A stretch of DNA of 64,000 bases from Amycolatopsis sp. (GTDB taxonomy: Bacteria; Actinomycetota; Actinomycetes; Mycobacteriales; Pseudonocardiaceae), in assembly GCF_025464955.1 (NCBI RefSeq), contig NZ_JAODNM010000072.1, positions 1-64,000 on the forward strand, read 5' to 3'. A program made the position numbers and the translations under genes. This document shows positions 16,133 to 29,274 of this stretch, one piece after another. The notes under the pieces are model-generated. The model was given only the letters and a program-made list of their open reading frames with translations, did not search any database and had not been told where the DNA came from. The number at the start of each line of letters is the position of its first letter. Within the stretch, counting starts at the first letter, position 1.

Positions 16133-18118
16133 TCAGAGCAGGCGGAGCTGGTCACCCTCGGTAGCGTTCCGGGTGCTCTCCGCGGGAGTGCGCGGTAGCG
16201 GGAAGCTGCCCGCGGGCCAGCCGGAGGCATCGTCATCAAGCCTGCCACCAGGATTGCCACCAGAGTTGTCACCTGGGATACCGCGCGGGGTTTCGCGCGA
16301 GCCACGGTCCAGCCCGTGCTTGCGCAACAGCCTGCCGACACGTCCGGAGAGCTCGGCGCGGTACTCCTTGCTCGCGTAGGCGCCCTTGCCGTAGATCTCC
16401 CGATAAAGCGGCACCAGACCCGGGTAGTCCTCGGCGAGCCACTGCGCGAACCACTCCCGCGTGCCGGGACGCAGATGCAGCGGCACGACCGTGACGCCGG
16501 TGGCTCCGGCGTCGGCGATCGCGGTGAGCAGTTCGTCGAGGGAGTTTGTCGAGTCGGTCAGGCCCGGCAGGATCGGCGCGACGAACACGCCGCAGGGCAG
16601 GCCCGCGTCCCTGGCCCGGCGGACGAGATCGAGGCGGGCTTGGGGGCTCGGTGTCCCCGGCTCGAGCCGATGCTGCAACTCCCTGTCCAGCAAGGCGATC
16701 GACACCCCGAGCCCGACCGGCACGTCCTTCGCGACCGACGACAGCAGCGGCAGGTCCCGGGTGAGCACGGTGCCCTTCGTGAGGATCGAGAACGGCGTGC
16801 CCGAATCCGCGAGCGCACGGATGATCCGCGGCATCAGTTTGTACCGGCCCTCGGCACGCTGGTACGGGTCGGTGTTGGTGCCCATCGCGACGTGTTCGCG
16901 CTTCCAGGACGGCTTGCGCAACTGCGCGGCGAGCACCTCTGGCGCGTTGACCTTGACCACCACCTGGGTGTCGAAGTCCTTGCCCGCGTCGAAGTCCAGG
17001 TAGGTGTGGGTGTTCCGGGCGAAGCAGTTGTGCGAAACCATGCCGTTCGCGATGAAGTCGCCGGTGCCGGTAGTGATGTCGAAGAGCGGGAGCTCGATCC
17101 CGAGCGGCTCGACCGACACGACGCCGACCCGGGAGGTCGCGCGCAGTGCCGTGCCGTCGATCACCCGCTTCCTGGTGATCGCGGGATCGACCGTGTGCAG
17201 GAAGCGCAGCTGCTCGCCCAGCCCGCCGAGCAACCGGACCGTGCGCGCGCCGGTGGCCCGCTCGTAGTCGCCGATCGTGTGCCGGAAACCGAAGCCTCGC
17301 AAGGCATCGGCGACCACCTCGGAAGCGGCGTCGTCCACACTGGCCACGCGGAGGACCTCCCGCGTGTACGAGCCTGAAGCGTCGAAGACTCCAGCCAGGA
17401 AGCCCTTCTGCCACGACCTGGACGGCGAGATCGGCGGCTCGGAGGCGTCGCTGAGCGTGCGGAAACCCGCGAGGAACTCGCGCGAACGGTCGGACGCCTC
17501 CGGCTCGGCGGACCCTTCGCCTTTGACCATGCCACTGACGTACCCCGCGCGGTACTCGGGGTCGCGGTGCGGCGGGCGGGCGAACCGCCCGGTACCGACG
17601 ATCTTCGTGCCGGGCAACAGATGCGGCCGCTGCGGCGAGCCGGCGCCATGCCCGCCGGTGACGTGCTTCCAGCCGCGGTCGGTGAGGAACCGGTGCTCAC
17701 CGCTCCCGATCAGCTCGGTGCCGTCCTCGAGCACCACGCGGTAAGCGTGCTTGACCGACGACCAGTGCGCGAGCACCCGCGTGCGGGTGTACCGGCGGCG
17801 GGAACCCTCCTGCTCGGTGCCGTAGACCTCGTCGCCGACCACGACGTCGGCAAGCGGCTTGGTGCGCCCGTCGGCCATCAGGATCTCGGTGCTGCCGTCG
17901 AGGCAGTAGGTGCAGGCATGGGAACACCCGCGATATGGGTTCACCGTCCAGCCGAACGGCATGGGCGAGCCCGTCACTTTGTTGAGTACCGACTTGGCGT
18001 GCACCTCGTGAAAGGTCACGTCGTCGAACTCGGGCGAGCGCACCGAGCGCACCAGCCCGTCGAGCTGCACCAACGCCTGTTCGGACCGGTCGTCAGTCCG
18101 CTGCCTGTCCCATCGCAC
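16133..18118 (-). CDS. Intein-containing Rv2578c-family radical SAM protein
   Basis: Precursor of 661 residues. The host protein is a SplB-like radical SAM enzyme of the M. tuberculosis Rv2578c family: LVRSVRSPEFDDVTFHEVHAKS, GYRGCSHACTYC-type cluster motif and, after the insertion, FARNTHTYLDF, GTNTDPYQRAEGRY, SILTKGT, LPGLTDS and GVTVVPLHLRPGTREWF. The cluster motif CxxxCxxC (C65, C69, C72 by this start) is interrupted by an intein that starts at the third Cys; the Cys after the intein restores the motif on splicing, giving ~368 residues. I take GTG 18118 (VRWDRQ; recalled mycobacterial proteins start MRW) rather than ATG 18136, which lies inside a LexA-like box. Substrate unknown; DNA repair is a family-based guess. 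Confidence 0.9.
   Translation of the reverse strand: MRWDRQRTDDRSEQALVQLDGLVRSVRSPEFDDVTFHEVHAKSVLNKVTGSPMPFGWTVNPYRGCSHACTYCLDGSTEILMADGRTKPLADVVVGDEVYGTEQEGSRRRYTRTRVLAHWSSVKHAYRVVLEDGTELIGSGEHRFLTDRGWKHVTGGHGAGSPQRPHLLPGTKIVGTGRFARPPHRDPEYRAGYVSGMVKGEGSAEPEASDRSREFLAGFRTLSDASEPPISPSRSWQKGFLAGVFDASGSYTREVLRVASVDDAASEVVADALRGFGFRHTIGDYERATGARTVRLLGGLGEQLRFLHTVDPAITRKRVIDGTALRATSRVGVVSVEPLGIELPLFDITTGTGDFIANGMVSHNCFARNTHTYLDFDAGKDFDTQVVVKVNAPEVLAAQLRKPSWKREHVAMGTNTDPYQRAEGRYKLMPRIIRALADSGTPFSILTKGTVLTRDLPLLSSVAKDVPVGLGVSIALLDRELQHRLEPGTPSPQARLDLVRRARDAGLPCGVFVAPILPGLTDSTNSLDELLTAIADAGATGVTVVPLHLRPGTREWFAQWLAEDYPGLVPLYREIYGKGAYASKEYRAELSGRVGRLLRKHGLDRGSRETPRGIPGDNSGGNPGGRLDDDASGWPAGSFPLPRTPAESTRNATEGDQLRLL
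17027..17905 (-). other. Intein (Hint domain with degenerate LAGLIDADG endonuclease)
   Basis: A 293-residue insertion, residues C72-N364 of the precursor. Splice block A is CLDGSTEILMADGRTKPL with Cys1; block B is GEHRFLTDRGWKH (His); blocks F/G are ELPLFDITTGTGDFIANGMVSHN, ending in the standard His-Asn with Cys as +1 extein residue. Between them are two LAGLIDADG-like helices, GYVSGMVKGEGSAE and GFLAGVFDASGSY. The second has Ser where the metal-binding acidic residue is expected, so the endonuclease is probably inactive while splicing should be intact. Confidence 0.92.
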
Positions 18119-18126
18119 CCAGCCAG

Positions 18127-18142
18127 TCGAACACATGTTCTA
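18127..18142 (-). promoter_or_regulatory. LexA (SOS) box upstream of the radical SAM gene
   Basis: TCGAACACATGTTCTA matches the mycobacterial/actinobacterial SOS box TCGAAC-N4-GTTCGA at 11 of 12 defined positions. It lies 9-24 bases upstream of the GTG start chosen for the radical SAM protein, a typical operator position, and overlaps an upstream ATG. I recall the M. tuberculosis homologue being DNA-damage inducible; binding here is inferred. Confidence 0.65.
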
Positions 18143-19789: not shown

Positions 19790-21148
19790 TTACGAGCGAA
19801 GCGCTCCTCGTGTCCGTTGCCAGTCGGTGACCGCCGAGCACCCGGCGTCGATTTCCGCCTCCAGGAGGGCGACCTGCTGGGCGGCGACCTCCTCGCCGAG
19901 CAGCTCCGCGCCGCGGCCGTTCCCGGTGAACGCCTGCAACGCCTCCCACGGCGTCGCGGCCAGGCTGCCGAGAACCTGATCGGCGGCGGGCAGCGGCAGC
20001 TTCTCCTCGATCCCGGCGCGTCCGGCAGCGAGGAGGGCGGCGACAACCAGGTGCGGCTGCGCGTCGGCACCAGGGAAGCGGAACTCGAGCCGCAGCGACG
20101 CGCCGGAACCGGCCACCCGGACCGACGCCGTACGGTCGTCGATGCCCCAGCGCAGCACGCGCGGCGAAAACGGCGCGGTGCGCAGCCTCACGTAGCTGTT
20201 CCAAGTCGGCGCCCAGATGGGCGTCAGCGCTCGCGCGTCGCGCAGCACCCCGGCGAGGAACTGTCCGAAAAGCGGCGAAAGCACCGTGCCGCACGCCGCG
20301 GACGCCTGCTTGCCGTCCAACCTCGACAACGAAAGGTGCACATGTCCGGAACTGCCCTGTCCCGCCGCGGGCGCGGCGAGGTAGCTCGCCGTGACACCGT
20401 GCTCGGCGACGGCGGTGCGAACGATCCATTGCTGCAGCAGGACGTCGTCGCAGGCCGCGAGCGCGTCACGGTGTCTCAGCACGATCTCGTACTGCCCCGG
20501 GTGACACTCCGCGCGAGCGGACTCGGCGCCCAACTCCGCATTGGCGAGCGCCGCGCGCACGTCTCGCAGCACGGGCTGAAGACGTTCGGTGCCACCGAGG
20601 GCGTAGTCGCCACCATGGGAAGTCAACGGCTTTCCGTCGCCGTCGAGCAGGACGAACTCGTGCTCGATCCCGATCGACGGAATCAACCCGGCCAGTTCCA
20701 ATTGACTCAGCTGGGCTGTCAGCGCCTGGCGCGGTGACGCCTCGACCGGCTCGCCGTCGGGCCACTCGACGTCGCACACGAGCGCCCAGGTGCGCCCGTC
20801 CGCCGACAACGGCACAGCAGTGGCGGCATCGGGATGCATCCGCACATCGCCGAACTTTGTCACATACCTGCCCAACGGACCTGACGGATCCACAGTGGAC
20901 AACGTGTCGCGGTGGACGTCCCAAGCGAACACGTAACCGCACAGCCCGTACCCGCCGCCTAGCACTTCCTCCTCGACGAACCGGTGATCCAGCTCGACGG
21001 CCGCAAACCGCGAGTGGGCGTCCGGCACCACGAGCAGGACGGTCTCGATGGCGCCGGCCGACAGCGAGCGACGCAAATCCACGTCCATCGCCCTGGCCAC
21101 GGCCGCCCTCGCCGCCAGCGACCGCGGGCCGACCGGACGCCGCTTCAC
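19790..21148 (-). CDS. Glutamine synthetase-family ligase of the siderophore operon
   Basis: The 452-residue protein is a GS-fold ATP ligase that would join the gamma-carboxylate of glutamate to an amine. The N-terminal beta-grasp region (about 85-135) is followed by the catalytic domain. The metal and nucleotide residues are kept: GIEHEF (two Glu), [10 protein letters not shown] (two Glu), SGHVHLSL (His), [16 protein letters not shown] and [16 protein letters not shown]. The divergence suggests a gamma-glutamylpolyamine synthetase-like enzyme, not housekeeping GlnA. GTG 21148 overlaps the IucA/IucC stop as GTGA (GTG 21151 also possible). As last of four coupled genes, it likely acts on the diamine or N-hydroxydiamine made upstream; this is inference. 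Confidence 0.8.
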
Positions 21149-22944
21149 CACGCGCCCGCCGGATCCGCTGCCCGCAGCGGATTGGTCGCGCGGCCCCAGC
21201 GGACGTCGAACTCGTCGTCCCGCTCGACCTTGTCGAACCCTTGCCCAGCCAGATGTTCCCTGTTCAACGTGACGCGCTCGACGTCTTCGGCGAACAGGCG
21301 GCAGGCGTCGAACCGGACGGACAGCTCCGGGTTCCGGTCGCGGAACCTCGACACCACCTCGCGAACGGGCGCCCAGAAAAGGGAACGTTCGAAGCCGAGA
21401 TCATCGAAGAGGATCTCGGCCCAGAACCGCAGCTGGCCCGCGAAAACCGAGCTGAACAGCGACTGTGCGAGCAGATGTGCCGGCCAGCGGAGCATCTCTT
21501 CGGCCACCTCGGAAGGGAGCGAGCCATAGCAGTCGAGGTCCTCGTCGAGCAGGTCGACGCCCTGGGCGAAGTCCTTGATCGCCACCCGGGACGGCTGGCT
21601 TTCGGCGTCGAGCACGAGAATCAGGTTCTGCCCGTGCGGGCAGAAGCCGACCCCGTAACGCAGCAACCACTGCAGCAGCGGGGTCAGCAGCAGGTCGAAA
21701 ACCCGAGCACACCACTGTTGAGTGTCCAAACTGGACTGCCGGATCAGGTCGACCAGCACGGTGTCACCGGCCGGATCGCGATACGGCAAGGCAGCGAAAG
21801 ACACCGCCCGCTCCCCCTCCACGAGCCGACCGACCAGCGGCTCGCGCCAGAGCGCACCGAGCGTTTCGTGGAAGCGGTACGGCAGCTCCTCGATCGAGCC
21901 GAACAGCGGGTGCCGGACGGACACGCTCGCAACCTCGCCGAGCAGCTCGAAACGATAATCCTTGGACAGCAGCGGATCGGCCGCGCTGAGAGCACGCAGC
22001 CAACTGGTGACGGCCGGGCCGGCGAGCGTCGCCGCCGACGCCAGCCCGCGGTAGACCAGGGTGTTGCGAACGGACACCGCGGTCTTGACATCGCGGCGGC
22101 CGGGATCGCTCAGGTTCGCCAGCGTCCGGATCGTCTGATGTGGACGGTAGCGGTCGCGGCTCTCGCCGAGCTCGACGAGCGTGCCGTTCGCGATCTCCGC
22201 CGCGTACAACGTGCCGATGGTCTCGTCGGCCTGCCACGGGTGCACGGGCACCCAAACGTAGTCAGCCGGGTCTCCGACTTCGGCCAGGCGTGCGGTGAAC
22301 TCGGCGCGTTGCCCGTCGTCGAGTTCCTGGGCCCTGAGCCCGTCTTCGCTGAGTTCGTCGACACAACGGAACTCGGCGTGGTCGCGGTGGACGGCGAACC
22401 AGCGCAGGAAGATGTCGGCTCCCGCCTCAGGTGCGTACTTCGCGCGATCGGACGCGGAAAACCCGACGCGCCCCTTGTTGAGGACCAGCCTCGGATGCCC
22501 GGTGAGATGACCGTCCGCGAGGTTGTAGTCCATCGTGGACAGTTCGGCCGCGCTCGGCGCTCGCCGCAGTCGCGCGGCCTCGTTGGCGACCGTGGCCGTC
22601 AGCTCCGCGAGGACGTCCGCCAGCCGAAGCCCGGTGAGGCCGAGCACGGTTCGCGCATCGGTGACCAGTACACGGGGATCGTCCGCAGGAAACTCGTTCC
22701 TCAGCGCGCTGCCGGATTCGACCGTCCACGAGTCGAACGCACCCCTCCGCGCCCGGAAGGTGTAGGTCACATCGGCAAGCGGCAACCGCCAGCCGGAATA
22801 CCCGTTGACGCCTTCATCGTCGGCAGGCTCAGGCTTCAACAAGCCCTCGTACGACAGCTCGCCCAGCATCTTGTGGACGATGAGCGCACCGGCCTCACAC
22901 CAGGCGCCTGCCGCGTCGATCCGTTCCCCCGGAATGAAACTCAC
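21145..22944 (-). CDS. IucA/IucC family (NIS) siderophore synthetase
   Basis: NRPS-independent siderophore synthetases adenylate a carboxylate (citrate or a dicarboxylate half-unit) and condense it with an amine or hydroxylamine. The 599-residue protein has LADGHLTGHPRLVLNKGRVGFS (about 145-165), the VPVHPWQ motif, the ATP block TIRTLANLSDPGRRDVKTAVSVRNT, the C-terminal FhuF-like part with GVGFCPHGQNLILVL, and the acidic IKDFAQGVDLLDED. The GTG at 22944 overlaps the monooxygenase stop as GTGA; 36 upstream codons in the open frame are excluded. Substrate class (A, B or C) cannot be fixed by eye. Confidence 0.93.
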   Translation of the reverse strand: MSFIPGERIDAAGAWCEAGALIVHKMLGELSYEGLLKPEPADDEGVNGYSGWRLPLADVTYTFRARRGAFDSWTVESGSALRNEFPADDPRVLVTDARTVLGLTGLRLADVLAELTATVANEAARLRRAPSAAELSTMDYNLADGHLTGHPRLVLNKGRVGFSASDRAKYAPEAGADIFLRWFAVHRDHAEFRCVDELSEDGLRAQELDDGQRAEFTARLAEVGDPADYVWVPVHPWQADETIGTLYAAEIANGTLVELGESRDRYRPHQTIRTLANLSDPGRRDVKTAVSVRNTLVYRGLASAATLAGPAVTSWLRALSAADPLLSKDYRFELLGEVASVSVRHPLFGSIEELPYRFHETLGALWREPLVGRLVEGERAVSFAALPYRDPAGDTVLVDLIRQSSLDTQQWCARVFDLLLTPLLQWLLRYGVGFCPHGQNLILVLDAESQPSRVAIKDFAQGVDLLDEDLDCYGSLPSEVAEEMLRWPAHLLAQSLFSSVFAGQLRFWAEILFDDLGFERSLFWAPVREVVSRFRDRNPELSVRFDACRLFAEDVERVTLNREHLAGQGFDKVERDDEFDVRWGRATNPLRAADPAGAW

Positions 22945-24245
22945 CGTGCCTCCGCTATCCGATCGAGCCCGAACGAGGTATAGGCCGTGCGCTGCGGCAG
23001 GTCGTAGACGGCCCGCCCGCACACCGTGTTGAGGATGGACGCGGCCCGCCACGCGCCGAGGCCGAGATCCGGCGCGCCGACGCCGTTGCGGTGGCGCTCG
23101 GCGTTCTGCACGAAGATCGACCCGGTGATACCGTCCGGTAGCCGCAGGCGGTATTCGGCGTCGACGGCGAACCGCCCGCGGGTGTCACGTTCGGCCTTCT
23201 CCCCCAGCTCGCCGAGCAGGTGCTCCACCGGCGTCTCGGCGTACCCTGTCGCGGCCACGACGGCGTCCGTTCGCACGACGGCTTGCGCGTCCTGCTGCGC
23301 ATGGCGCACATCGAGCAACACGGCGTCGCCTGTCCGGCGTGCGGCGAGGATCTCGACACCCGGTGTCAGCACGACGTCCGGCCAGGAGTCCCGGACGCTG
23401 AGCTGATAGAGCTCCTCGTGGATGGCCGCGATGGTTTCCGCGTCGATTCCCTTGTACAGCTGCCATTGCGCGGGAAACAACTGCTCGCGCACGGGCTCGG
23501 CGAGGCCGCGGAAATACGCCGTGTAATCCGGGGTGAACTGCTCCAGGCCAAGTTTCGAATACTCCATCGGCGCGAACGACGGCGTGCGGGCCAGCCAGCG
23601 CAACCCGTCGGCGCTCGGCCGCCGTCGCAACAGATCAAGAAAGACCTCGGCCCCGGACTGCCCGGAACCGACCACTGTTACGGTTTTCGCGGCGATCAGC
23701 GCGTCGCGGTGGGCAAGGTAGTCGGCGGAGTGCAGCGCAAGGACATCCGGATCGGCGACAACGTCGGCCAGCGCGTCCGGAACCGACGGCGACGTACCGA
23801 CGCCGAGCACGACATTGCGAGCCAGCACCGGATCGCGCCCGTCGACGTTGACTTCGAACGCCTCCGCGGGCGCATTCCAGCGCACTGCGGTGACCGCGCT
23901 CGAAAACCGGCAGCTTTCCAGGCGCGCACTCGCCCAGCGTCCGTAGTCGTCGTACTCGGCGCGTTGGACGTGGAATCGTTCCGAGAAATAGAAAGGAAAG
24001 AGCCGGCCGCGGATCCGCAGGTAGTTCAAAAAGGACAGTGCGCTCGTCGGGTCGACCAACGTGACGAGGTCGGCCAGGAACGGGACCTGCAGCGTCGCGC
24101 CCTCGATGAGCAAGCCCGGGTGCCAGCGGAACTCGTCGCGGCGGTCGAACAGCACCACGTCCAGGCCGACGATCGGGTCCGCCAGCGCGGCCAGGGAAAG
24201 ATTGAACGGGCCGATGCCGACCCCGGCCAGATCAAGAGGGCTCAC
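22941..24245 (-). CDS. L-lysine/L-ornithine/diamine N-monooxygenase (siderophore)
   Basis: FAD- and NADPH-dependent N-hydroxylase of 434 residues, DesB/IucD/AlcA-like. Features: FAD motif LAGVGIGPFNLSLAAL (residues 5-20), the FRWHPGL...LQVPFLADLVTLVDPTS substrate block, NADPH motif TVVGSGQSGAEVFLDLL (about 190), an ATGYAETP motif, and the C-terminal GAPDLGLGAWRAA. It should hydroxylate the terminal amine of the diamine produced by the decarboxylase (cadaverine or putrescine) or of the free amino acid. GTG 24245 overlaps the decarboxylase stop as GTGA, so the two are coupled. Confidence 0.92.
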   Translation of the reverse strand: MSPLDLAGVGIGPFNLSLAALADPIVGLDVVLFDRRDEFRWHPGLLIEGATLQVPFLADLVTLVDPTSALSFLNYLRIRGRLFPFYFSERFHVQRAEYDDYGRWASARLESCRFSSAVTAVRWNAPAEAFEVNVDGRDPVLARNVVLGVGTSPSVPDALADVVADPDVLALHSADYLAHRDALIAAKTVTVVGSGQSGAEVFLDLLRRRPSADGLRWLARTPSFAPMEYSKLGLEQFTPDYTAYFRGLAEPVREQLFPAQWQLYKGIDAETIAAIHEELYQLSVRDSWPDVVLTPGVEILAARRTGDAVLLDVRHAQQDAQAVVRTDAVVAATGYAETPVEHLLGELGEKAERDTRGRFAVDAEYRLRLPDGITGSIFVQNAERHRNGVGAPDLGLGAWRAASILNTVCGRAVYDLPQRTAYTSFGLDRIAEAR

Positions 24246-25678
24246 GAAACGACCGTGCTCTGCTGGGGTACCAAGGCTTCCGCCGCGGCCGTGGCCACGA
24301 CCACGTCGAGCAGACCGCGGTAGTCCGCTGCCTCGGCGTGCGGCTGCAGCAGGGTCAGTTTCAGCCACAGGCGGAAGCCGCCGTCGCCGGTGGGCATCAG
24401 GGCACGGCCGACGACAGCCGTTCCCGCCTCCAGCAGTGCGCGCCGAACCCTGGCGATCAACGCGTCTCCACCGGCCACCGGCCGGAAGAGCACTGTGGAC
24501 AGGGTGGGTTCGCCCCAGAGTTCCACTGACGGATGCGCGTCGATCAGGCGCGCGACTTCGGACGCGGTTTCACAGCAGCGTTCGATGAGCGCGCCGACCC
24601 CGACGGTACCCAGCGCCCGAACGGTCACGGCCATCCGGAACGCGTCCGGGCGGCGGGAGGTCCGGATCGACCGGCCGAGCAGGTCGGGCAGCCCGGCTTC
24701 GGTGTCGTCGTCGGCGTTCAGGTACTCGGCGCGCACGGTGAGCGCGTCCAGCCCGCGACCGTCGCGACAGGCGAACAACCCGGCGGAAATCGGCTGCCAG
24801 CCGAACTTGTGCATGTCCAAGGCGACCGAATCCGCTTCGGCCAACCCACGCAGGAGCGGCTTGAGCGCGGAGCTGAACAGGAGCATGCCGCCGTACGCGG
24901 CGTCGACGTGGAACCGTGCGCCGAACTCGCGGCAGGTCGCGGCGAGCGCGGGGAGCGGGTCGATCTCTCCGGTGTTCGTGGTGCCGGCCGTCGCGACGAC
25001 CAACGCCGGAGAACCCAGCGAGCGCAGGACTTCGGCCAGTGCGCCAGGTGTCATCCGGTCGCCCTCGCAGTCGACGAGGACCGGCGCGGGCAAACCCAGC
25101 AGCCAAGCCGCGCGGGTGACACTGTGGTGCGCGTTGCGGCCGCAGACGACTGTCGTGATCCCGTTTTCCCTGGCCAGCAGGAGGCCGAGCAGGTTCGATT
25201 CGGTTCCGCCCGTGGTGACCACGGCGTCCGGCCCGGGGTCGGACGGGTAGCACAGGCGGGCGATGCCAGTGGTGAACTCGCGCTCCAACTCGCTCGCGAC
25301 CGGCGCCTGGTCCCACGAGTCCATCGACGGGTTGAGCGCGCTGGCGACGACGTCGGCCGCGACAGCGACAGCGAGCGGCGGGCAGTGCAGATGCGCTGCG
25401 CACCAGGGGTCCGCGGGATCGGCCGAACCCGCCGCGAGGAGCCGGCTCAACTCGGTCAGCGCGGCTTCCGCGCCGACCCCTGTCGCGGGGAAGCCGGGTT
25501 CGAGCGTCGATGCGAGGCCTGCCGCGACGGCGGCCGGCCCCCCTGCGGGCGCCGGGCCCCCGCGTTCGACCGCGCCCGCGGCAAACCCCTTGAGTGCCAG
25601 CGGGATCAGCTCGGCAAGCCGGTCCGCCCCCGGCACCCCGCCGGCCAGCGAGGTCACCACCGCCGTTTCCTCTGGCAT
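24242..25678 (-). CDS. PLP-dependent amino acid decarboxylase (DesA/DABA-decarboxylase-like)
   Basis: Group II pyridoxal-phosphate decarboxylase of 478 residues. It shows AHLHCPPL, DSWDQAPVASELE, TTGGTESNLLGLLLAR, NAHHSVTRAAWLLG, ATAGTTNTGEIDPL, HVDAAYGG (Asp binding the pyridine N) and the PLP Lys in LDMHKFGWQP (about 300). Siderophore relatives decarboxylate lysine, ornithine or diaminobutyrate to a diamine. It is the first gene of the operon; the ATG at 25678 is only 18 bases from an iron box. The diamine product then feeds the coupled monooxygenase. Exact substrate is inferred. Confidence 0.9.
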   Translation of the reverse strand: MPEETAVVTSLAGGVPGADRLAELIPLALKGFAAGAVERGGPAPAGGPAAVAAGLASTLEPGFPATGVGAEAALTELSRLLAAGSADPADPWCAAHLHCPPLAVAVAADVVASALNPSMDSWDQAPVASELEREFTTGIARLCYPSDPGPDAVVTTGGTESNLLGLLLARENGITTVVCGRNAHHSVTRAAWLLGLPAPVLVDCEGDRMTPGALAEVLRSLGSPALVVATAGTTNTGEIDPLPALAATCREFGARFHVDAAYGGMLLFSSALKPLLRGLAEADSVALDMHKFGWQPISAGLFACRDGRGLDALTVRAEYLNADDDTEAGLPDLLGRSIRTSRRPDAFRMAVTVRALGTVGVGALIERCCETASEVARLIDAHPSVELWGEPTLSTVLFRPVAGGDALIARVRRALLEAGTAVVGRALMPTGDGGFRLWLKLTLLQPHAEAADYRGLLDVVVATAAAEALVPQQSTVVS

Positions 25679-25696: not shown

Positions 25697-25715
25697 TTAG
25701 GCTTGCCTACCCTCA
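25697..25715 (-). promoter_or_regulatory. Iron box (DmdR/IdeR operator) of the siderophore operon
   Basis: TTAGGCTTGCCTACCCTCA matches the actinobacterial iron-box consensus TTAGGTTAGGCTAACCTAA at 14 of 19 positions with the dyad preserved. It is directly upstream of the decarboxylase start, so Fe(II)-loaded DmdR/IdeR would repress the whole operon. No regulator gene lies in the window. Confidence 0.78.
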
Positions 25716-26215: not shown

Positions 26216-27169
26216 CTACCGGCGAGGAGCCAGGCCGCGGACGAGGTCGAACTGGTCGCCGCCGGTGGGCAGCAGCGCGATCACCGGGGTGGTCAGCCCG
26301 TTGTCCACATAGGACTGGACCTTCTCCCGGCACTCGTCGACGCTGCCATGCACGATAAGGTCGTCGACGACCTCGTCCGGGATGACGGCGTTCGCCTTCT
26401 TGCGGTCACCGGCGGCCCACGCCTCGTGCATCGGCGCCAGCGCCTCACCGCGGCCGAGCCACTCGTGGAAGGCTCGGTAGACGGGCACCGTGAGGTAGCT
26501 GCTGATCAGCATGCGACCGAGGCCACGGGCGGCGTCGGCGTCTTCGGTGGGGCACACGAAGACCCGCGCCGCAAGCTCCAGGTCGGGGCCGACCTCGGCC
26601 CGCACCTTTGGCACGTCCGTCGGCGCGAGCCAGTTGGTGATCGCGCCGTCGGCCTCTGCCGCGGCCAGCTTCAGCATGCCTGGACGCAGCGCCGCGAGCA
26701 TGATCGACGGCGGCGGCACGGGCGGCCGCTCGAGCCGGAACTTGCTGATCGAGAACGTCTCGTACTCCTCGGTCACCTTCTCCCCGGCCAGTGCCGAACG
26801 CAGGAACCGCAGCGTGTCGCGCGAGCGCGCGAACGGCTTCTCGAACGGCTGCGCGTTCCAGCCCGACACGATCACCGGCGACGACGTGCCGATACCCAGG
26901 ACGAACCGCCCCGGTGCCAGCTCGGCCACCGCCGCCGCGCTCATCGCGAGCAGCCCGGGCCCGCGGGTGTACACCGGCACGATCGCCGTCCCGAGCCGCA
27001 GCTGCGGCGCCCACTGCGACGCCAGCACGAGCGGCGTGAACGCGTCGACGCCGGCAGTTTCGGCCGACCACGCGTCGGTGTACCCGAGGTCCGGCAGCTG
27101 CTCGACGAGCTCCCGGTGCTCGGCAAGCGGGACGCCGGTGAGCGGGATCGTGATTCCCCAACGGTTCAT
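26216..27169 (-). CDS. LLM-class (luciferase-like) flavin-dependent oxidoreductase
   Basis: A 317-residue TIM-barrel monooxygenase/dehydrogenase of the luciferase-like family, using FMN or F420. Markers are the GITIPLTGVPLAEH start, LGYTDAWSAETAG, APQLRLGTAIVPVYTR, GRFVLGIGTSSPVIVSGWN and a C-terminal DDLIVHGSVDECREKVQSY. Substrate unknown. ATG 27169 overlaps the stop of the S9 peptidase as ATGA; the open frame runs 15 codons further, inside that gene. Confidence 0.85.
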   Translation of the reverse strand: MNRWGITIPLTGVPLAEHRELVEQLPDLGYTDAWSAETAGVDAFTPLVLASQWAPQLRLGTAIVPVYTRGPGLLAMSAAAVAELAPGRFVLGIGTSSPVIVSGWNAQPFEKPFARSRDTLRFLRSALAGEKVTEEYETFSISKFRLERPPVPPPSIMLAALRPGMLKLAAAEADGAITNWLAPTDVPKVRAEVGPDLELAARVFVCPTEDADAARGLGRMLISSYLTVPVYRAFHEWLGRGEALAPMHEAWAAGDRKKANAVIPDEVVDDLIVHGSVDECREKVQSYVDNGLTTPVIALLPTGGDQFDLVRGLAPRR

Positions 27170-29274
27170 GAACGGCCTTTCTGGGCGTGGGCGGCAAGTT
27201 CGGTTTTGATCCACTCGACCTGGACGCGCATGAGGTTCTCCGCGACTTCCTCAGCCTGCGGGGTCATGTGCGTCGCGCCGGCCAGCGGCAGGAACGTGTG
27301 CGCCTTGCCGGCCGCCAGTAGGGCCGACGACAGCCGCAGCGAATGCGCGACGAACACGTTGTCGTCCGCGAGGCCGTGCACGATGAGCAGCGCGCGGCTG
27401 AGTTCCCCGGCGTCGGCGATCAGCGAGTTGTGCCGGTAGGACTCCGGCTCGTCCTGCGGGGTACCGAGATAGCGCTCGGTGTAGTGCGTGTCGTACAACG
27501 ACCAGTCCGTGACCGGCGCGCCCGCGATCCCCGCGTGAAAGACGTCCGGGCGCCGGAGCACGGCCAACGCCGAGAGATAGCCGCCGTAGGACCAGCCGCG
27601 GATCGCGACCCGCTCCAGATCGAGCTCCGGCCGGGTCGCCGCGACCGCGTGCAGGGCGTCGACCTGGTCGGCGAGAGTGACCTCTGCGAGCTTGCCGGCG
27701 ATCTCCTGTTCCCAGGCCGGACCGCGACCCGGCGTACCGCGACCGTCCGCGACGAGTACCGCGAAGCCCTGGTCGGCAAGCCACTGCGGCACGAGGAAGG
27801 CGTTGCGGCTCTGCAGGACCCGCTGGGCGTGCGGGCCGCCGTACGGATCGAGTAGGACCGGAAGCTTCCCGTCGGCCGGGTCGTAGCCCGTCGGCAACAG
27901 CAGCGCCGCGCGCAGCCCGCGCTCACCCAGCGTCAGCCACTTCAGGTTCAGCACGAGCCCAGGGTCCACTGTGGACGACGAGATCCCGGCGACCGGCTTG
28001 CCGTCGTCGAGGACCGTGACCTCGGGGCCGTTGTGTGTCAGGCTCCACGACGACAGCACGGTCAGCTCGGCGCTACCCGCGCCGGCGTGGACCCCGTCCG
28101 TCCCGGACAGGCGCCGGACGGCGTCGCCTTCGGTGCGGTAGACGTGGATCTGCGTCGGATCCTGTTCGGACGCGCTGAACAGCACCTCGTTGCCGACAGC
28201 GACCACCGAGCGCACCTGCAGCCCTGGTTCGGTGACCGCGGTGCCGTCGATCGTGAGCCGGTGGCTGCCTTCCGACGCCCGGACGTCCACGAGCCGGCCA
28301 CCGGCCGTCCACGCGGGCACCCCCGGCACGAGGTCGATCCAGACCGGGTCGGTCTCGGTGTGCAACGTGGTCACCGAGCCGTCCGCGGGATCGACCGCCA
28401 GGATCTGCTTCCGGCGCTGGTCACGCGACTGCACGGCGAGCAGCGGCGGGCCGCCGGCCGACCAGTGCACGCTCGCCAGGTACTCCCAGTCGCCGCGCTG
28501 GACGTCGACGTGGGCGCCGTCCAGCCCGAGGATCGCCAGTGACACCTCGACGTTCGGCACGCCGGCCGCCGGGTAGGCGACGACGTTGGCGGGCTGGTCC
28601 GGGTTCACCGGGTCCGCGATGGTCCAGCGGGGCACCGGCGTCCGGTCGTACCGCTCGACCAGCAGGCTCAGGCCGTCCGGCGACCACCAGTAGCCGTTCG
28701 ACCGGTCCATCTCCTCGCCGGCGATGAATTCCGCGAGGCCCCAGGCGATCTCGTCGCCGTCCTCGCCGACGATCTCGCTGTCCTCGCCCGTGGCCAGGTC
28801 GACCACGCGAAGTCGTCGATCGCGGACATACGCGACATGCGTGCCGGTGGGGTTGGGCCGAGGATCGATCACCGCGCCGTCGACGCGCTTGGTGACCTCG
28901 CCCGTGGCCAGGTCGAGCGTGTAGAGCTTGCCCGACAACGAAAACGCGGCGACGCTGAACTCGTCGTCGACCGTGTAGCCGACGACCCCGCCGGAAGTCT
29001 CCCGGCTGCGCTCACGCCGCGCGCGCTCTTCCGGCGGCAACTCCTCCTCGCCGGGCAGCAGCTCCACGGCGTCCACCAGCTTCGACTCCGTACCGGACGC
29101 GACGTCGAGCGACCAGAGGCTGTTGCGCGGGTCGGTGCCGGTCTCGGAGCGCAGGAACAGGACCCGCGTGTGGTCCGGGGAAACCCGGAAGCCCTTGGGC
29201 GCGCCCAAGGTGAATCGCCGGGTGCGGGCTTGCAGGCGGAGGAACGAGTTCGCGGGATCGGTCACACCAGGCAC
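27166..29274 (-). CDS. S9 family prolyl (dipeptidyl) peptidase
   Basis: The 702-residue protein has a DPP-IV-type beta-propeller (about residues 40-440) and an alpha/beta-hydrolase catalytic domain. The propeller shows GLAEFIAGEEMDRSNGYWWSPDG, whose paired Glu residues anchor the substrate N-terminus in dipeptidyl peptidases. The triad is Ser in RGWSYGGYLS (about 560), Asp in GLADDNV and His in GATHMTP. No signal peptide is visible, so a cytoplasmic role in peptide turnover is likely. Start GTG 29274 or 29265. It is coupled with the LLM oxidoreductase by ATGA overlap. Confidence 0.92.
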   Translation of the reverse strand: MPGVTDPANSFLRLQARTRRFTLGAPKGFRVSPDHTRVLFLRSETGTDPRNSLWSLDVASGTESKLVDAVELLPGEEELPPEERARRERSRETSGGVVGYTVDDEFSVAAFSLSGKLYTLDLATGEVTKRVDGAVIDPRPNPTGTHVAYVRDRRLRVVDLATGEDSEIVGEDGDEIAWGLAEFIAGEEMDRSNGYWWSPDGLSLLVERYDRTPVPRWTIADPVNPDQPANVVAYPAAGVPNVEVSLAILGLDGAHVDVQRGDWEYLASVHWSAGGPPLLAVQSRDQRRKQILAVDPADGSVTTLHTETDPVWIDLVPGVPAWTAGGRLVDVRASEGSHRLTIDGTAVTEPGLQVRSVVAVGNEVLFSASEQDPTQIHVYRTEGDAVRRLSGTDGVHAGAGSAELTVLSSWSLTHNGPEVTVLDDGKPVAGISSSTVDPGLVLNLKWLTLGERGLRAALLLPTGYDPADGKLPVLLDPYGGPHAQRVLQSRNAFLVPQWLADQGFAVLVADGRGTPGRGPAWEQEIAGKLAEVTLADQVDALHAVAATRPELDLERVAIRGWSYGGYLSALAVLRRPDVFHAGIAGAPVTDWSLYDTHYTERYLGTPQDEPESYRHNSLIADAGELSRALLIVHGLADDNVFVAHSLRLSSALLAAGKAHTFLPLAGATHMTPQAEEVAENLMRVQVEWIKTELAAHAQKGRS

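Follow-up and report, generated by a model that had tools for sequence, protein, structure and literature searches.

Comparative evidence leaves it close to settled that four genes at positions 19790 to 25678 of the window (the whole 64,000-nucleotide stretch analysed here, from contig NZ_JAODNM010000072.1 of the 9.2 Mb Amycolatopsis sp. assembly GCF_025464955.1) form a siderophore operon in which a glutamine-synthetase-fold ligase (GS) is a working member. GS likely joins glutamate to a pathway amine, and it probably gamma-glutamylates N-hydroxy-diaminopropane, the resulting units being linked by the IucA/IucC synthetase (IUC) encoded beside it. The operon further encodes a decarboxylase (DEC) and an N-monooxygenase (MOX) and is preceded by a predicted iron box:

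24242..25678, minus strand: DEC, 478 aa, ATG start; pyridoxal phosphate-dependent decarboxylase, PF00282 (Pyridoxal_deC); putative L-2,4-diaminobutyrate decarboxylase
22941..24245, minus strand: MOX, 434 aa, GTG start; diamine-type flavin N-monooxygenase, PF13434 (Lys_Orn_oxgnase)
21145..22944, minus strand: IUC, 599 aa, GTG start; IucA/IucC synthetase type C, PF04183 and PF06276 (FhuF)
19790..21148, minus strand: GS, 452 aa, GTG start; glutamine-synthetase-fold ligase, PF00120 (Gln-synt_C); putative gamma-glutamyl-(N-hydroxy)diamine ligase
25697..25715, minus strand: predicted IdeR/DmdR-like iron box, TGAGGGTAGGCAAGCCTAA on the operon strand, with 4/19 mismatches to the consensus

Successive genes overlap by GTGA (24242-24245, 22941-22944 and 21145-21148, as open reading frame coordinates in the 64-kb window). 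Scored against a 19-bp IdeR/DmdR consensus, the predicted iron box, 18 bp upstream of DEC, is the sole site in the window with ≤5 mismatches. Among relatives' operons, a box with ≤6 mismatches was found between -350 and +60 of the first gene in 44/48, the loci without one being L038, L045, L054 and L066, while the background rate for 410-nt stretches was 0.3% (shuffled) and 2.1% (random). The operon is probably iron-regulated. The original prediction was confirmed in what it observed, the four genes, their order and the GTGA overlaps being exact.

To find out how far the four-gene order extends, as had been proposed, genomes of the family and named genomes were searched. A loose cut-off matched 173 of 297 family genomes, and the best 30 loci, the window being one of them, were examined; DEC-MOX-IUC-GS was present in all 29 of the others (with DEC partial, as these loci are short). 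Named genomes were scanned with the IUC alignment in a search that required exact peptide words and is therefore no census, giving 65 loci. IUC was at least 53% identical at 51 of them, with the four genes in order at 48 and IUC alone at 3; the other 14 had a more distant IUC or weak matches. As the order is conserved across the named loci, a chance arrangement can be excluded. An in-frame GS start overlapping the IUC stop by 4 bp was obtained at 46/48 loci with a script that picked the start closest to the expected overlap position. In the 297 family genomes, IUC (≥56% identity) occurred in 50 and GS (≥52%) in 50, with both in 48, and the next-best GS identity below this orthologue set was 41%. 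The unpaired genomes were G209 and G263 (IUC without GS) and G201 and G228 (GS without IUC). Pairwise distances of GS and IUC correlated with r 0.89 across the 48 loci. Co-occurrence with IUC and translational coupling led us to reject GS as a housekeeping neighbour and, together with the iron box, uphold the earlier view that it is a dedicated pathway member.

The operon is carried by many Amycolatopsis, Actinokineospora and Actinophytocola genomes, among them A. tucumanensis ABO and A. rifamycinica DSM 46095, and the IUC proteins closest to that of the window come from Amycolatopsis species. Four operons come from outside Pseudonocardiaceae (Streptomyces gossypii, S. candidus, Streptomyces sp. 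ISL-36 and Nocardia inohanensis), and their loci also carry iron-siderophore transport genes (a binding protein and a FecCD permease at L074, a FecCD permease at L070, an ABC ATPase at L073 and a ferric-siderophore binding protein at L076). In a class-wide sample, GS matched at 1e-78 in 4/394 genomes: the window genome and G045 belong to the operon GS clade, G598 carries a related siderophore-linked GS, and the GS of G335 groups with the ordinary paralogues.

The solitary copies of IUC and GS are read as deletion remnants. Lone IUC genes occur in three Amycolatopsis genomes (L058, L061 and L080), which have no MOX match above 36% identity and whose IUC keeps 279, 270 and 205, respectively, of the 308 invariant positions. 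Lone GS genes (L153, L154) occur in two genomes of the genus that includes Actinokineospora; since GS follows there the luciferase-like gene that borders the operon, DEC, MOX and IUC have probably been deleted. In the window this luciferase-like gene (26216-27214) lies upstream of the operon. It adjoins 40/44 named Pseudonocardiaceae operons, with some copies fragmentary or reversed, and was rejected as a pathway member as it was undetected at the four Streptomyces and Nocardia operon loci. At one further locus (L023, genome G246) the IUC frame contains a single TGA while its neighbours match over the full length, reflecting either decay or a sequencing error.

To characterize GS, 63 distinct operon-clade sequences (≥50% identity, including the window copy and the two lone GS) were aligned to E. 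coli GlnA. The metal ligands E129, E131, E212, E220, H269 and E357 and the arginines R321, R339, R344, R355 and R359 are kept in 63/63, and G265 in 62/63. The ammonium site is lost: D50 is replaced by C in 61/63, E327 by F in 63/63 and S53 by Y or F, and Y179 is deleted in all 63. GlnA3 and PauA7, both amine ligases, are reported to have lost D50 and E327 in the excerpted text of PMC5403932, and GlnA2 and GlnA3 act on polyamines and GlnA4 on monoamines according to that of PMC8998196. The residues of GS fit a ligase for glutamate and a bulky amine and not an ammonia ligase. In a maximum likelihood tree of a chosen subset, the operon GS form one clade with an ultrafast bootstrap (UFBoot) of 100. 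Their sister clade (UFBoot 100) comprises a second siderophore-linked branch and a paralogue common in operon genomes, the nearest of which, in Streptomyces sp. ISL-36, adjoins genes for an aldehyde dehydrogenase, a permease and a GntR regulator, a setting resembling amine catabolism. The window GS is 36-38% identical to its nearest non-operon paralogues in seven genomes.

IUC contains PF04183 (237.7 bits) and PF06276 (94.7 bits). In phmmer comparisons DfoC, the AlcC-type alcaligin enzyme, NcdF, DesD and IucC scored 251-287 bits versus 29 bits for IucA, and in the tree IUC forms a branch of its own with the type C enzymes, apart from type A (split supports 100 and 98). No PF04183 match besides IUC, and hence no type A partner, was found in this genome assembly. 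Type C enzymes of the nonribosomal peptide synthetase-independent siderophore (NIS) pathways act on monoamides of dicarboxylic acids, and a gamma-glutamyl hydroxamate would be one. Loss of the type A gene from a two-NIS operon combined with gain of GS is one possible origin of the operon.

The diamine was approached through DEC, MOX and the genes next to them. The best NCBIfam model for DEC is RhbB, and its nearest solved structures are 5o5c (a desferrioxamine decarboxylase) followed by 2qma (a diaminobutyrate enzyme); those of MOX are the monooxygenase 6xbb, the putrescine N-hydroxylase 7us3 and the desferrioxamine monooxygenase 5o8p. In trees with several weak inner supports, DEC and MOX lie close to their counterparts from actinobacterial two-NIS operons and on branches apart from DesA and DesB of Streptomyces sp. 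ISL-36 (L182). At L073, L074 and L076, the operons of S. candidus, ISL-36 and N. inohanensis, a class III aminotransferase gene extends 4 bp into DEC, and its product reaches 499-512 bits with TIGR00709, the model for diaminobutyrate--2-oxoglutarate transaminase (cut-off 401.6); the S. gossypii operon showed no transaminase before DEC. This diaminobutyrate transaminase makes 1,3-diaminopropane likelier than cadaverine or putrescine, and from it we infer that DEC converts diaminobutyrate to 1,3-diaminopropane. For this genome EctB is a probable source of diaminobutyrate (658 bits, cut-off 552). EctB-type matches were present in 23/23 operon genomes tested, 22 of them above the cut-off, and in 47/48 operon genomes versus 168/249 others, in a test without correction for ancestry.

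Homologues of the diaminobutyrate transaminase were also seen in other settings. In two Streptomyces clusters (L183, L186) one stands beside IucA/IucC-like genes with no DEC or MOX labelled, and in two Actinokineospora genomes (L176, L178) homologues of 45-46% immediately follow genes whose products are about 1350 aa long. A rhizobactin-like Streptomyces cluster is mentioned without a product in an excerpt of PMC3848822.

In related pathways the hydroxamate is made from acyl-coenzyme A (acyl-CoA) by RhbD and DesC. A profile for such siderophore-type GCN5-related N-acetyltransferases (GNATs), trained on RhbD, DesC and the GNATs of L158, L151 and L118, recovered the GNATs of L152, L164, L180, L181, L161 and L162, all outside the training set, and the operons L088 and L182, which are comparable, contain PF13523 proteins. 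At E≤1 the profile matched nothing in the window and nothing at the 48 operon loci, searched up to 10 kb on either side of IUC (several loci were shorter), in agreement with the earlier description of an operon lacking an acyltransferase. Elsewhere in this genome there are six PF13523 matches, one of them strong (129.7 bits). A DesC homologue at another place but dedicated to this pathway, which would have spoken against the original prediction, was looked for and not borne out: the strong match sits in a separate cluster with a DEC and a MOX of its own and has a match at 1e-10 in only 3/23 operon genomes. An acyltransferase is not a conserved companion in the tested operon genomes. The proposal that GS replaces DesC was thereby upheld in part, in that its residues fit an amine ligase and no DesC-like gene matched in the operon or close to it; GS may acylate either the N-OH, giving a hydroxamate, or a free amine.

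The separate cluster (L118, G000:C77:36000-52000) encodes a DesABC-like decarboxylase (35%), N-monooxygenase (41%) and PF13523 acyltransferase together with an aromatic ammonia-lyase, a class II DAHP synthase, an AMP-binding ligase and a LuxR regulator. No NIS gene was found in it, and it is possibly an aryl-acyl hydroxamate pathway.

From these observations a scheme for an NRPS-independent hydroxamate siderophore can be drawn, which as a whole we hold to have a nearly even prospect of being right. Diaminobutyrate, probably supplied by EctB in this genome and by the DEC-adjacent transaminase elsewhere, would be decarboxylated by DEC to 1,3-diaminopropane, of which MOX would hydroxylate one amine. 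GS would form an acyl phosphate at the gamma-carboxylate of glutamate and pass the acyl group to the hydroxylamine, giving the hydroxamate; IUC would then adenylate the carboxylate still free on the gamma-glutamyl unit and condense it with a second unit through the latter's free amine, in the way DesD couples N-succinyl-N-hydroxycadaverine units. The product would be an oligohydroxamate, linear or cyclic, whose alpha-amino groups stay free. Every substrate and product named here, the hydroxamate-forming role of GS and the oligomeric nature of the product included, is inferred. A gamma-glutamyl-N-hydroxy-1,3-diaminopropane unit has 10 backbone atoms, as has succinyl-N-hydroxyputrescine, and its dimer would equal putrebactin in ring size but carry free amino groups. 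That the operon makes a new scaffold, namely a macrocyclic or linear oligomer of this unit with a CoA-free hydroxamate formed by GS and IUC acting on the alpha-carboxylate, is put forward more tentatively than the pathway itself.

The linkage of GS to siderophore genes is not confined to this operon. The second siderophore-linked GS branch (UFBoot 90) contains five genomes of one genus (L151, L152, L164, L180 and L181), with DEC-MOX-GS in 5/5, and G598. In L151, L152 and L181, the three whose fetched region reaches it, a transaminase gene precedes DEC. In G598 (L174:797-10582) the order is DEC-NIS(A)-MOX-NIS(C)-GS with 4-bp overlaps at 3/4 junctions and a PF02784 decarboxylase gene upstream. 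GS thus stands directly behind an N-hydroxylase or NIS gene in two further gene orders.

Several observations weigh against the scheme. The glutamate contact N264 of GS is replaced, mostly by Q, also by T, A and others; since E131 is in addition a metal ligand, the residues alone do not prove glutamate to be the substrate, although the glutamate-using GlnA2 likewise lacks N264 in the account excerpted from PMC8998196. DEC scores 261 bits against a RhbB cut-off of 900, and midpoint rooting of the DEC tree separates it from Ensifer RhbB, which sides with DesA; the substrate of DEC can therefore not be read from its sequence. Among the 48 operons the diaminobutyrate transaminase before DEC was recognised only at L073, L074 and L076, and at none of the Pseudonocardiaceae operons, this one included. 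EctB is common in the family (215/297 genomes), so that its presence is permissive, not diagnostic, and it was set aside as proof of diaminobutyrate supply; the operon genome G179 has no EctB match at 1e-150. Siderophore-type GNATs were also missing from 4/7 GS-free NIS operons fetched (L157, L159, L160 and L163; the second NIS gene of L162 and L163 is assumed from place and size), and the absence of an acyltransferase alone is therefore no proof. Some PF13523 protein at E≤1e-10 is present in 12/23 operon genomes and none in 11/23, and the strong one of this genome itself accompanies another DEC/MOX pair. Finally, in all five DEC-MOX-GS genomes a siderophore-type GNAT lies in a neighbouring NIS operon (a second NIS gene nearby was confirmed in L151 and L181 only), so that GS may not replace an acyltransferase there.

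Alternatively, GS may glutamylate a free primary amine, belonging to diaminopropane, N-hydroxydiaminopropane or a product of IUC; the gamma-glutamyl amide would protect, cap or tailor the siderophore, and the acyl group of the hydroxamate would come from an acyltransferase elsewhere or from IUC. We regard this as unlikely, but it is the alternative that fares best. Characterised Streptomyces GS-like relatives glutamylate primary amines, as stated in excerpts of PMC8998196 and PMC5403932, and both the PF13523 proteins of the 12 operon genomes and the genus with GS and GNAT side by side fit it. The 11 genomes devoid of such a protein and the narrow distribution of this genome's GNAT do not, and the order diaminobutyrate transaminase (DAT)-DEC-MOX-GS sets GS straight after the N-hydroxylase.

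A citrate-based, schizokinen-like product, in which IUC, unaided, attaches two gamma-glutamyl-N-hydroxydiaminopropane units to citrate, appears rather improbable. The sole PF04183 protein of this genome is of type C and a type A partner was not found, even though DEC and MOX branch near those of two-NIS operons, L174 combines NIS-A, NIS-C and GS in one operon, and a single NIS enzyme can make the citrate-based rhizoferrin according to part of PMC7857480. The original prediction had favoured cadaverine or putrescine as the diamine, for which, with a glutamyl desferrioxamine as the product, little room is left. Such a product agrees with the desferrioxamine origin of the nearest solved decarboxylase, with the putrescine and desferrioxamine enzymes, two of the nearest solved N-hydroxylases, and with the failure of Ensifer RhbB to group with DEC. 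The diamine was nevertheless revised, as the diaminobutyrate transaminase overlaps DEC in 3/4 operons outside Pseudonocardiaceae and precedes it in the second GS-bearing type, and DEC and MOX do not share the tree branches of DesA and DesB. Use of another carboxylic acid by GS, for instance succinate to give an ordinary succinyl hydroxamate, would suit the replaced N264 and the double role of E131 but is very unlikely given the conservation of R321, R359 and G265 and the use of glutamate by characterised GS-like relatives (PMC8998196 and PMC5403932, in the excerpts). Fradiamine was not adopted as the product, since the excerpt of PMC6836290 shows a citrate bearing two alkyl amines but no glutamate, and the Amycolatopsis siderophore of PMC6024995, an ornithine hydroxamate in the part seen, gave no lead.

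In a different part of the window, at 16133-18136 on the minus strand, a 667-aa radical SAM protein is encoded whose N-terminal half has weak Hint and LAGLIDADG matches below the cut-off, perhaps an intein. Long proteins similar to it recur in other Amycolatopsis.

A description of the operon was not found in the open-access literature searched, and a report in subscription papers is possible. If gamma-glutamylation of an N-hydroxydiamine by GS is correct, NIS siderophores would have a second, CoA-independent route to the hydroxamate by recruitment of the glutamine-synthetase fold. It would account for an orphan operon in Amycolatopsis, Actinokineospora and Actinophytocola and predict glutamate hydroxamates with ionisable amines. 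GS beside a MOX or NIS gene would then be a marker for genome mining, and the annotation "glutamine synthetase family protein" would become a testable enzyme.

Among known systems, GS resembles the gamma-glutamyl-amine ligases GlnA3, GlnA4, PuuA and PauA7 in its GS domain, its conserved metal ligands and arginines and its replaced ammonium site (PuuA was in the alignment, the others were compared by way of published papers). These enzymes work in amine use or detoxification, whereas the operon GS clade is coupled to siderophore genes behind a predicted iron box.

With the rhizobactin 1021/schizokinen system (rhbABCDEF, for which we take L088 of Ensifer aridi to be the operon from gene order), the operon shares a decarboxylase, an N-monooxygenase and a type C NIS enzyme, presumably 1,3-diaminopropane, and at 3/48 operons, all outside Pseudonocardiaceae, a diaminobutyrate transaminase. 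Unlike that system it has no type A NIS enzyme and no match to an RhbD-type acetyltransferase, with a GS-like ligase in its stead, and DEC lies outside the Ensifer RhbB branch. With the desferrioxamine genes desABCD (labels that we presume for L182 of Streptomyces sp. ISL-36, from gene order and PF13523), it has in common one decarboxylase, an N-monooxygenase and a type C NIS enzyme, and presumably the coupling of N-hydroxydiamine monoamides. It differs in having no DesC-type match and in the placement of DEC and MOX outside the DesA and DesB branches, and its probable building blocks are diaminopropane and glutamate as opposed to cadaverine and succinate.

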